NCBI RefSeq assembly: GCF_002214605.1
Contig: NZ_CP015193.1
Location: 724,978 to 788,977 of the forward strand
Length of the DNA: 64,000 nucleotides
Direction: 5' to 3'
From: Thermococcus chitonophagus
GTDB lineage: Archaea > Methanobacteriota_B > Thermococci > Thermococcales > Thermococcaceae
Under the pieces are notes generated by a model. It saw only the letters and a program-made list of their open reading frames with translations, made no database searches and had not been told where the DNA came from. Both the position numbers and the translations under genes were made by a program. Of the stretch, positions 8,872 to 55,198 are shown piece after piece. Positions within the stretch are counted from its first letter, which is position 1; each line of letters begins with the position of its first letter.

Positions 8872-8901
8872 CCCTTTTAACTATTTTTGCGCATTTTTTA
8901 T

Positions 8902-8956
8902 GGGATGATGACCGGTTTCGGGACTGAGATATGATGACACCAGCTATCGCTGACTT
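8902..8956 (+). ncRNA. Box C/D sRNA (2'-O-methylation guide), candidate 23S rRNA target
   Basis: All four boxes are present with archaeal spacing: box C ATGATGA (8905-8911), box D' CTGA (8924-8927), box C' ATGATGA (8931-8937) and box D CTGA (8950-8953). Both guide regions are exactly 12 nt (8912-8923 and 8938-8949). The D guide CACCAGCTATCG is complementary to CGATAGCTGGTG, which contains the GATAGCTGGT stretch that is nearly universal in domain II of large-subunit rRNA. The D' guide matches TCCCGAAACCGG, close to the conserved CCCGAAACC run slightly upstream in the same domain. A TATA-like CTTTTAACTA at about 8874-8883 fits a dedicated promoter. Its 3' end overlaps the end of the convergent gene at 8944. 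Confidence 0.88.
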
Positions 8957-44295: not shown

Positions 44296-45342
44296 GTTTC
44301 CGTAGAACTAAATAGTGTGGAAAGACGCTAATATGTACGGTGGCTTCTCCGGGCACATGTAGCTCCCGGTTTCCGTAGAACTAAATAGTGTGGAAAGTCG
44401 TCTCTTGGCAAGCTTGTAGTCAAGAACTACGCCGTTTCCGTAGAACTAAATAGTGTGGAAAGAGAATAACACCATCCTTGTCAATTTCTTCTGCGACAAC
44501 AGTTTCCGTAGAACTAAATAGTGTGGAAAGTTGCTGGAAGCCTGTCAATGTGGAGTTCTGGTCCCCTCGTGCCCCAGTTTCCGTAGAACTAAATAGTGTG
44601 GAAAGCACCTCACCCATCCCGACAGCCCGCACCACCCTTCCCGCGTTTCCGTAGAACTAAATAGTGTGGAAAGCACTCACAATCGAAAAGCCCAACGAAA
44701 TCGTGATAAGTTTCCGTAGAGTTTCCGTAGAACTAAATAGTGTGGAAAGATGTCTAGCCCGGGGTTTTCGCCCACCCGGGCCGAACCGTTTCCGTAGAAC
44801 TAAATAGTGTGGAAAGCTTTTCTTTGGGGGTGCAGCCATGAGGAGGGTGTAGTTTCCGTAGAACTAAATAGTGTGGAAAGTTCCACCCCCACTTCTCAGC
44901 CCCGGGGCCTGAGCCGGGCTACCCCAGGTTTCCGTAGAACTAAATAGTGTGGAAAGGTGTAGTCCACTGATGCGTAGCTTACTTTTTGCTTTGGTATTAT
45001 GAAGTGTTTCCGTAGAACTAAATAGTGTGGAAAGGAGAGGGAATGAGTTTCAACAAAATCATTAGTACATGTTTCCGTAGAACTAAATAGTGTGGAAAGC
45101 CGAACTCCCTGATCTGCTGCCTCCTCTTGAAGTAAATGTCCCTAGGTTTCCGTAGAACTAAATAGTGTGGAAAGGGACAGGGCAAAGATGCTTGAAGACT
45201 TGAAGAAGTTAGTTTCCGTAGAACTAAATAGTGTGGAAAGAGGTAGGGCCAGTGGAAGAGCCGAAGGTGGACTGGGATGGAGCCGAGGGTGATACTGACG
45301 TTGAAGAAGGATGAGTTTCCGTAGAACTAAATGGGGGGAAAG
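44296..45342 (+). CRISPR. CRISPR array: 15 repeats, 14 spacers
   Basis: A 29-bp repeat beginning GTTTCCGTAGAACTAAATAG and ending TGTGGAAAG occurs at 44296, 44369, 44434, 44502, 44577, 44645, 44721, 44788, 44852, 44928, 45006, 45071, 45146, 45212 and 45315. The first fourteen are identical; the last (28 bp) is degenerate in its 3' third. Spacers are 35-49 bp, except the last, which is 74 bp. Spacer 6 (44674-44720) ends with an 11-bp copy of the repeat start. The degenerate end shows transcription runs left to right. No cas gene lies in the window, so the Cas proteins must be encoded elsewhere. Confidence 0.98.
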
Positions 45343-45458
45343 GATTTAAAATAAAAATCAAAATAGGACGGGGTTGCCCCCGAGTGGCCTCCCCGTCTGA
45401 AACTCATGAGGGCGGGGACTTGCCGTGAGGGGGCTTGGCGAACGCCGCACCCCCGTCC
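45343..45458 (+). ncRNA. GC-rich structured RNA candidate (45366-45458) with upstream TATA
   Basis: Directly after the array an AT-rich GGATTTAAAATAAAAATC (about 45342-45359, TATA-like) is followed by a 93-nt GC-rich block. The ends pair perfectly: GGACGGGG (45366-45373) with CCCCGTCC (45451-45458). Inside, GCCCCC (45376-45381) pairs with GGGGGC (45429-45434); GAGT/GTGA can form tandem G-A plus G-U pairs; GGC/GCC continues; and TCCCCGTC (45390-45397) pairs with GGCGGGGA (45411-45418). A short GGC-GAAC-GCC hairpin (45437-45446) completes a three-way junction. No conserved protein frame covers it. I cannot assign it to a known RNA family. Confidence 0.6.
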
Positions 45459-46510: not shown

Positions 46511-47341
46511 ATGATAGAGGAGTACTTATTCAGAGCGATACTAGCGAGCTTAATGGTTGGAACTCTGCTCGGCTTGTTAAGCCCCTTAATAAACGTCAAG
46601 GGGATAGCCTTCCTTACCCACGCAACGTTTCATGCCCTCCTTTTTGGGGCGGTCCTGGGGATGATCCTGGGGTTAGTGGTGGGCAACCTCTCCCTGATAT
46701 TCTGGATATCCTTAATAGTTGCTATAGTCGTGGTTATAGTCATAGCGGAAATGGAGATTAGGGGCTACTCCTCAGATACTGCAGTCGGCGCTACCGCGGG
46801 AATAGTCGCGGGCCTGACTGTTCTGGGCTTCGGGATACTCTACAAGGTCATGGCTTCTAGGCCTTACTTCGGCCTTTCCGAGAGCATCGTGACTTACCTC
46901 ACCGGTGAGATATTCCTTATAACCCTGAACGACCTCTGGATGCTCGTTCTTGGCGGAATAATAGCCTTTGCGATAATGCTGGCCTTCTACAGGGACTTCA
47001 TTTACCTCAGCTTTGATCCTGAGGGCCTCGAGAGTCATGGGGGGAATGCGAGGTTTTACCTTATGGTCCTATACTTCTTGGTCGGTGCAATCGGCGGTTT
47101 GATAGTCAAGACAGTTGGACTGATAACCCTTCAAGTCCTCGCGGTTCTCCCTGGGGCCATAGCCCTGACGCTTTCAAAGGATCTCCGCGGGTTGATTGGT
47201 CTTAGCTTGGGCATAACGCTCTTAACCCAGGTTTCCTCAGTGATCCTTGGCTACCTCCTAGACGTTCCGCCGAGCGGTTTGGCAACCGTATTCCTGGGGG
47301 CACTTTACGGGGCGTTAATGGTCAGGAGGAGGCTGACATGA
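46511..47341 (+). CDS. ABC transporter permease, zinc/manganese (ZnuB-like) type
   Basis: This 276-residue membrane protein has about eight to nine hydrophobic segments and the ABC-3 family pattern: GTLLGLLSPLINVKGIAFLTHATFHALLFGAVLG, DTAVGATAGIVAGL, and a late VLPGAIALTLSKDLRG region near 210-226. It is translated one base after the ATPase gene and its stop overlaps the start of rnhB. The substrate (Zn or Mn) is inferred from the family. Confidence 0.88.
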   Translation: MIEEYLFRAILASLMVGTLLGLLSPLINVKGIAFLTHATFHALLFGAVLGMILGLVVGNLSLIFWISLIVAIVVVIVIAEMEIRGYSSDTAVGATAGIVAGLTVLGFGILYKVMASRPYFGLSESIVTYLTGEIFLITLNDLWMLVLGGIIAFAIMLAFYRDFIYLSFDPEGLESHGGNARFYLMVLYFLVGAIGGLIVKTVGLITLQVLAVLPGAIALTLSKDLRGLIGLSLGITLLTQVSSVILGYLLDVPPSGLATVFLGALYGALMVRRRLT

Positions 47342-48006
47342 TTGTGGCGGGAATAGACGAAGCGGGTAGAGGACCGGCGATTGGGCCGCTCGTCATAGCG
47401 GTGGCCGTGGCTGAAGAGGGCAAGCTTGTGAAGCTTAGGGGCATTGGCGTTAAAGATTCAAAGCAGCTGACTCCGGAAAAGAGAAGGGAGCTGTTTGATG
47501 AGATAACTTCAATTCTCGACGATTACTTCATTCTGAAGGTGTGGCCCCAGGAAATAGACTCCAGGAAGGGAACCATGAACGAGCTCGAAGTTGAGAAGTT
47601 CGCTCAGGCTTTGAACTCCCTCACGATAAAGCCTCAAATCATCTATGCCGATGCGGCAGACGTTAAGGCTGAGAGATTTGCTAAGGCGATAAAGGCCAGG
47701 CTCTCCTATGAAGCTGAGGTTATAGCTGAACACAAGGCCGATGCTAAGTACCCAATAGTTTCTGCAGCCTCAATACTTGCGAAGGTCACGAGGGATGAGG
47801 AGATAGAAAGGCTAAAGGAGGAGTACGGCGACTTCGGCTCTGGCTACCCGAGCGATCCCAGGACGAAGAAGTGGCTTGAAGAGTGGTTTAAGGCTCACAA
47901 AAGCTTCCCGCCAATAGTCAGGAGAACGTGGGACACGGTAAAGAGGATTGAGGAGAAGTATAAAGGGGAGCAGCTAACGCTTGACAAGTTTTTTAAGAAG
48001 CCTTAG
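47338..48006 (+). CDS. rnhB: Ribonuclease HII with PIP box
   Basis: This enzyme cleaves the RNA strand of RNA-DNA hybrids. The 222-residue protein has the catalytic acids D7 and E8 (GIDEAGRG), D105 (YADAADV) and D135 (HKADAKYP). The C-terminus ends QLTLDKFFKKP, where QxxLxxFF (about 213-220) is a PCNA-interacting PIP box. The ATG at 47338 overlaps the preceding TGA (ATGA). The 3' end overlaps the convergent glycosyltransferase gene by 33 bases. Confidence 0.96.
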   Translation: MIVAGIDEAGRGPAIGPLVIAVAVAEEGKLVKLRGIGVKDSKQLTPEKRRELFDEITSILDDYFILKVWPQEIDSRKGTMNELEVEKFAQALNSLTIKPQIIYADAADVKAERFAKAIKARLSYEAEVIAEHKADAKYPIVSAASILAKVTRDEEIERLKEEYGDFGSGYPSDPRTKKWLEEWFKAHKSFPPIVRRTWDTVKRIEEKYKGEQLTLDKFFKKP

Positions 48007-55046: not shown

Positions 55047-55080
55047 GGCTTAATGCAGGACACCTTCACCGAGTGGGAGT

Positions 55081-55167
55081 GCCGGGATAGCCCAGCCTGG
55101 TAGGGCGCGGGCCTTGAGAGCCCGTGGGCGTTTGCCCGCCGGGGTTCAAATCCCCGTCCCGGCGCCA
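55081..55167 (+). tRNA. tRNA-Ser (anticodon TGA)
   Basis: The acceptor GCCGGGA pairs with TCCCGGC (55157-55163). The anticodon arm CGGGC-CTTGAGA-GCCCG has anticodon TGA (serine TCA codons). A long variable arm (TGGGCGTTTGCCCG) marks a class II tRNA. Discriminator G and an encoded CCA end are present. Confidence 0.97.
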
Positions 55168-55198
55168 GAATTATCCTTATAATTTAAGGGGTGGTAAA

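Follow-up and report, generated by a model that had tools for sequence, protein, structure and literature searches.

What does a GC-rich, strongly folding block of DNA directly beyond a CRISPR array encode, and does its place beside the array matter? This question was raised by a locus in the window, a 64,000-nt stretch of the Thermococcus chitonophagus genome (contig NZ_CP015193.1, positions 724,978 to 788,977). The original prediction proposed a three-way-junction RNA at this locus and left its position next to the array as either incidental or functional.

Composition and fold of the block

The structured block comprised 93 nt on the plus strand (45366-45458); the start first proposed, 45343, takes in an AT-rich stretch. 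The block had a G+C content of 72%, compared with 46.6% for the window, and equally G+C-rich 93-nt windows numbered 10 of 63,907, all located at the block or at a tRNA (55069-55169). The prediction of a GC-rich block of this length after the last repeat of the array and a TATA-like stretch was therefore borne out, the latter holding the box TTTAAAAT at 45345-45352. Transcription would presumably start at about 45366-45376, judging by the spacing from a TATA box. An 8/8 TATA match was present within 140 nt upstream at 13 of the 21 loci (out of the 28 family loci described below) that this test took in, but AT-rich shuffles often matched too.

The MFE of the block was -55.8 kcal/mol; 200 dinucleotide shuffles averaged -41.6 (sd 3.4), and none of them folded as low (z -4.2). 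The minus strand reached -49.1 (z -2.5), a value equalled or passed by 2 of 200 shuffles. The block also folded more stably than 4,124 stretches of 93 nt sampled from both strands of the window at a step of 31 (lowest -46.7). Its ends, GGACGGGG and CCCCGTCC, formed an 8-bp pairing that enclosed a short hairpin (GGCGAACGCC) and a long arm whose two stems flank GAGT/GTGA; folding thus agreed with the predicted end pairing and the two internal hairpins, including the GAGT/GTGA arm (Table 1). At the Rfam 15 gathering score, no family covered the block or its relatives; CRISPR repeats were reported near or over the block, and none over the block reached threshold. A CRISPR-DR24 fragment over the block (E 8.8, in a search extended to E 10) was dismissed as chance.

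Table 1. Features of the block and its immediate surroundings, in window coordinates
Feature	Position	Strand	Basis
TATA-like box TTTAAAAT	45345..45352	+	8/8 consensus match; 4% of shuffles of the upstream stretch equal it; weak support
Degenerate last CRISPR repeat, adjacent, probably outside the RNA gene	45315..45342	+	25.4 bits, family threshold 36
Orphan structured ncRNA block, three-way-junction fold	45366..45458	+	Fold z -4.2; relatives and covariation; single copy in own genome
P1 5' strand (partner 45451-45458)	45366..45373	+	Two double changes versus L002
P1 3' strand	45451..45458	+	Same as P1 5' strand
P2 arm	45376..45434	+	24 arms: 161/168 basal-stem and 91/96 second-stem cells paired
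P2 basal stem	45376-45381 / 45429-45434	+	24-arm pairing counts
P2 apical stem	45390-45398 / 45410-45418	+	
GAGU, internal loop 5' side	45382..45385	+	23/24 arms
GUGA, internal loop 3' side	45425..45428	+	23/24 arms
Candidate K-loop, GA 45399-45400 opposite UGA 45407-45409	45399..45409	+	UGA in 24/24 arms
P3 short hairpin UGGCGAACGCCG	45436..45447	+	Stem identical in 7/7 sequences

Relatives in Thermococcaceae genomes

The structured-RNA reading gained support from relatives in Thermococcales. BLAST over 61 genomes returned L002 in G003 (91% match over 79 nt), L003 in G002 (75% match) and L004 in G001 (93% over 27 nt), and a pattern search of 94 Thermococcaceae genomes added L040 and L064 (both in G069), L054 (G097) and L056 (G102); scanning the genome contigs with one exact RNA pattern gave a single stretch, apparently the L054 contig. 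In a first alignment of seven sequences, 20 proposed pairs made up 135 cells, of which 90.4% paired, a proportion that dropped to 51-58% when partners were slid by 1-3 columns. Double changes occurred at six pairs, and as many arose in 1 of 500 shuffles; further pair types were no more numerous than in shuffles (292/500). P1 was the least uniform helix, with 73.9% of its cells paired and double changes at three pairs, and P3 was invariant, hence without covariation evidence. The compensatory changes for which the original prediction called were thus found, and they kept the helices of the relatives. A conserved protein frame over the block was not evident, and the arm-length differences between relatives were not multiples of three.

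The strong matches of the model built on this alignment (R1) were its own seven source sequences. Its weak matches (E 0.010-0.019) led to L078, L096 and L110, and again to L004. The idea that L004 is a circularly permuted form of the window RNA was abandoned, as L054 and L056 identify L004 as the tail of one unit with a second arm unit behind it. In the genome that holds the window, a 31-nt piece at the end of an ATPase-like ORF (L105, ~1500-1531; G000:C1:1224679-1224709) resembled the apical part of the second arm of L004 (90%, E 2.8e-5).

L078, L096 and L110 shared the P2 arm and lay in or near integrated relatives of the plasmid pT26-2. The neighbour of L078 shared 90% identity with the t26-17p/18p region, a further neighbour was a t26-19p relative, and BLAST with the L078 region gave matches in 20 of 94 genomes. 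A second alignment (A5) brought together 24 arms, omitting L128 and L129 (near-copies of L126), L040, L064 and the first units of L054 and L056. It misaligned L125 by one column, and pairs were therefore counted from the GAGU and GUGA motifs as anchors. Counted in this way, 161 of 168 cells paired in the basal stem and 91 of 96 in the second stem, compared with 144.1 and 79.5 when whole arms were re-dealt; none of 2000 such controls scored as high for either stem, although these and the other shuffle controls ignore the relatedness of the copies, which inflates them. Positions in the stems varied among C-G, G-C, U-A and U-G. The stems held 23 G-U cells against 0 A-C, many of the G-U cells possibly being shared by descent, and the RNA was for this reason most likely read from the plus strand of the window.

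The apical UGA was kept in all 24 arms, and the GA opposite it would complete a candidate K-loop, making the arm a candidate for L7Ae binding. Neither the UGA nor the candidate K-loop was present in L040 and L064, copies with a short arm, or in the first units of L054 and L056. By eye, P3 was short in the window copy, L002, L003, L040, L064, L054 and L056, long in L078 and L110, and missing in simple hairpins such as L121. Model R2, built on the larger set, gave 26 strong matches (E < 1e-10) in 22 of 94 genomes, namely its 24 source loci and near-copies in G022 and G088; ten of its 36 matches (E 0.0099-0.03) were treated as chance, L177 alone among them having been read. With the two short-arm copies of R1, the family came to 28 loci, spread over 22 of the 94 Thermococcaceae genomes, and neither model found an independent strong member. 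The window copy was the single family copy in its genome. Computation showed family membership and a conserved fold, and we assign the block to this family with high confidence.

The partner gene and the orphan copies

For the 28 loci, up to 6 kb of flanking DNA in either direction was examined, in 29 stretches (one being an extension), several of which end at contig ends. A t26-18p-like gene or a piece of one lay within 1 kb at 18 of the 28 loci, and in 18 of 18 cases it was convergent with the RNA. Where the gene alignment was complete and the arm had been located (13 loci), the alignment ended 7-75 nt from the arm core. The partner gene was missing at 9-10 of the 28 loci; at L207 a gene remnant was recognised by eye, and L200 was cut by a contig end. 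At least three other pT26-2 genes were found nearby at 7 of 28 loci, and L185, L186, L190, L194 and L196 lay among other genes, without neighbours of pT26-2 type. Computation thus showed that the association of gene and RNA recurs both inside and outside pT26-2-like elements. In many copies a 66-aa ORF (t26-17p) overlapped the start of the t26-18p-like gene, and at L185, L191 and L193 a broken partner gene accompanied an intact RNA.

Plasmid pT26-2 itself carries t26-18 and related hairpin modules at this place, but without this arm. The distant homologues L220, L221 and L223 ended against GC-rich, hairpin-forming DNA of other sequence, whereas L222 did not, and R2 did not recognise these hairpins (L220, E 0.95; L223, E 0.57). 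Inspection left the impression that each protein subfamily has its own RNA. GC-rich hairpin modules rich in AUGA/GAUGA recurred at the convergent place in L134 (3552-3762, which is pT26-2 between t26-18 and t26-19), L221, L223 and L116, and these modules were shuffled between loci. A family of 79-aa ORFs (MSLSGEIKRALKSIEEKYG...) stood in place of t26-18p, on the same side, at three RNA loci (L054, 1076-1462; L056, 1087-1332; L209/L210/L212) and matched no Pfam family at threshold.

Proteins of the t26-18p family were 161-193 aa long. AlphaFold models from 11 sequences (pLDDT 89.7, pTM 0.87) predicted an RNase H fold nearest to RNase HII. The best PDB match in Foldseek, and the only one at or below 0.001, was RNase HII of P. 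horikoshii (E 3.3e-4); in VIA-align, 135 residues aligned with RNase HII at a modest Z of 8.6 (rmsd 3.8), and the first 21 rows were RNases H of type 2 or 3. D9, E115 and D132 were invariant in the 11 sequences and D96 nearly so. Sequence methods gave no RNase H link, and nuclease activity is accordingly put forward here as a putative property of the modelled fold: hhalign of the partner against the window's own RNase HII returned a probability of 0.2% and no profile similarity, and a PDB sequence search with the partner returned no RNase H. PADLOC and Pfam held no family for t26-17p or t26-18p-like proteins, and NCBIfam gave E 0.08-0.12 for them, far below its cut-off. PHROG 31239, a family of unknown function, was matched by the L116 protein (E 1.7e-13) and by t26-18p (E 2.2e-5) and appears to be the sole curated family that the protein matches; in a library of viral structures its best match had E 1.4e-3. 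The 66-aa ORF folded poorly (pLDDT 65.8, pTM 0.35).

The window copy is an orphan RNA without a partner gene, as no pT26-2, 18p or small-ORF match with E < 0.02 was found in the window (the best tblastn match of 32 pT26-2 proteins had E 0.023) and no 18p match was found in its genome. Its nearest relative, L002, is also an orphan and occupies an unrelated site, about 113 nt after a tRNA gene. The two copies differed at 16 of 93 bases, with nine changes at paired positions. These altered 7 of 32 MFE pairs, two of them by double change, and broke none, whereas random placement of the changes broke 3.4 pairs on average (P 0.016); the orphan RNA would therefore seem to be structurally constrained. 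How orphans arise is suggested by L003, where 24 aa of an L040-type gene survive as a remnant.

Proposed function, rivals and known systems

We propose that the block holds a structured ncRNA gene in orphan form and that this gene in other Thermococcales belongs to a cassette, often made up of the 66-aa ORF (t26-17p), a t26-18p-family protein with an RNase H fold and the convergent RNA. The RNA would be a dedicated partner of the t26-18p-family protein; once folded, it may bind L7Ae at its apical loop, and it may restrain or direct the predicted nuclease, as an antitoxin or a cofactor. The lineage of the window would have lost the protein gene and kept the RNA, whether as an antidote to incoming cassettes or as a relic in slow decay, with the CRISPR array a mere neighbour. 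The compensatory changes, the convergent genes, the RNase HII-like predicted fold and the retention of pairs relative to L002 all count for a cognate RNA of this kind. Counted against it were the absence of the partner gene from the window's genome and from 9-10 of 28 loci, the opposite strands, the broken genes beside intact RNA, the modest Z, the failure of profile comparison to link the partner with RNase HII, a pT26-2 without the arm and the lack of independent strong members among the model matches. As a whole, a cognate antitoxin- or cofactor-like RNA of an RNase H-fold nuclease is a tentative explanation, somewhat short of an even chance, and the antitoxin or cofactor mechanism is held at that level or slightly lower. 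A bolder version, which we regard as doubtful, makes the cassette a new class of selfish two- or three-component system of hyperthermophilic archaea, in which a convergent, modular K-loop RNA would restrain or aim the nuclease and orphans would serve as host antidotes.

The convergent layout also allows the RNA to be a 3'-end element of convergent transcripts (a terminator or mRNA stabiliser) or an antisense RNA that tunes the nuclease mRNA, the window copy being a leftover. Arm cores 7-75 nt from the ends of the gene alignments mean that the transcripts could overlap, but the invariant bases of the internal and apical loops would not be needed for a terminator, and orphans without the gene keep their pairs; we consider this explanation unlikely, though it is the strongest of the rivals. 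The predicted RNase H fold of the partner, the dedicated structured RNA and the mobile context would likewise suit an RNA that guides or scaffolds an RNA-directed nuclease, as a distant functional parallel of TnpB/IscB with its omega RNA. The opposite strand, the small protein without a TnpB domain and the failure to identify a guide-like variable segment make that improbable. We give a similarly low probability to a plasmid replication RNA or a DNA-level hairpin (an origin, a transfer site or a recombination site) left by an integrated element. The RNA is present in pT26-2-like elements, and orphan L002 lies close to a tRNA gene, a usual site of integration; however, copies persist in chromosomes without plasmid genes, and the excess of G-U over A-C cells favours RNA over a DNA hairpin, even if many G-U cells are possibly shared by descent. 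Chance retention of a plasmid fragment as a non-functional relic would account for the lost partner gene and for a window with no other family gene at E < 0.02, but none of the seven changed pairs was broken relative to L002 and two had changed doubly, so that this too stands at a small probability, level with the guide scaffold and the replication RNA or DNA hairpin.

Lowest in our ranking, and very improbable, is an RNA with a link to CRISPR, for which the position next to the array would be significant. Between the degenerate last repeat and the block lie 23 nt, and family loci in G070 and G002 also lay within 1 kb of repeats: in G070 an array was 0.8 kb from the RNA, and in G002 the nearer of two repeats, one of them degenerate, was about 130 nt away. 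At the other 25 of the 28 loci no repeats were detected within 1 kb, by a scan that misses mini-arrays like that of G002; at L212 three CRISPR repeats lay 3.5 kb away. The layouts differed, as in the window and G070 the RNA lay by the distal end of the array but in G002 on the leader side, and no inverted repeat of at least 16 nt linked the array and the block. The block in the window is placed at the distal end by the degenerate last repeat, if such repeats mark the distal (trailer) end, as stated in PMC3124441. Since the window was chosen for its array, two independent cases are left. Arrays with the window's repeat type, the type that the count covers, numbered three in its own genome, and an estimated 0.5% or so of that genome lies within 1 kb of one; two CRISPR-adjacent loci outside the window may exceed expectation. 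With 25 of 28 loci free of detected repeats within 1 kb, the adjacency is probably incidental, perhaps reflecting an insertion-tolerant place, and the functional alternative left standing by the original prediction was not favoured.

Several features of the window and of related loci were recorded alongside. Within the array, an 11-nt partial repeat (GTTTCCGTAGA, 44710-44720) directly before the repeat at 44721 represents a partial duplication, and the last gap between repeats (45241-45314) measured 74 nt, compared with 35-49 nt for the other 13, as if a repeat had been lost. A 10-nt match between spacer 11 and the apical loop (E 0.003 for this one of 14 spacers tried) was taken as chance. A host RNase HII gene (47338-48006) lies about 1.9 kb downstream of the block, probably by coincidence; no RNase HII neighbour was listed for the other orphan, L002. 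A C/D-box guide RNA (sR28, 66.2 bits) occupied 8901-8955. At L003 (1141-1367, in G002), a CRISPR remnant of two repeats was joined to the final codons of a t26-18p-like gene.

Viral contigs held no match to the RNA pattern or the protein, and plasmid and phage records gave only chance matches for the L040 RNA region and none for the window region or the L118 protein. No such RNA or hairpin was mentioned in excerpts of the pT26-2 family paper (Badel et al. 2019, PMC6972569), a text-term search of Jaeger et al. 2014 (PMC4247193) gave no match, and the open-licence literature contained nothing fitting among the matches listed. Our analysis adds to the Thermococcales an RNA family with covariation support that is not in Rfam 15, and connects this family with a mobile cassette that encodes a small protein with a predicted RNase H fold, a link beyond the reach of the original prediction. 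If protein and RNA work together, they would form a nuclease-RNA pair of unusual convergent layout, approachable in genetically tractable Thermococcus, and the window orphan would allow a natural test of the idea that such RNAs are retained by hosts as antidotes.

Among known systems, the nuclease domain of TnpB/IscB is also RNase H-like, and its omega RNA resembles the block family as a structured RNA beside a gene of RNase H-like fold in mobile DNA. The family differs in its opposite strand (18/18 convergent), its 161-193-aa partner and the absence of a visible guide, and Pfam detected no TnpB/IscB domains in t26-17p or t26-18p-like proteins. Type III toxin-antitoxin systems (ToxIN) likewise join a nuclease-like protein to a structured RNA partner on plasmids and chromosomes, but their RNA is a tandem-repeat RNA upstream of the toxin on the same transcript, whereas the RNA described here is convergent. 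Archaeal box H/ACA guide RNAs share the GC-rich hairpin with a candidate K-loop; unlike them, the block family has a patchy, element-linked distribution, and the window copy has no ANA box directly 3' of its closing stem (UGAUCC follows). The partner protein resembles RNase HII in predicted fold, with no sequence or profile similarity detected. The P. abyssi ncRNAs sRk48/sRk52 and sRkB/sRkC (Phok et al. 2011, PMC3124441) were also compared. Identity with sRk48/sRk52 was rejected, as BLAST against the loci at the published coordinates gave only 12-21-nt chance matches. As that paper describes, the sRk RNAs are, like the block family with its candidate K-loop, GC-rich structured RNAs of Thermococcales at repetitive loci related to mobile-element genes, and have a K-loop or K-turn; unlike the block family, they are related to OrfB (TnpB-like) transposase genes and lie on the same strand as the gene.
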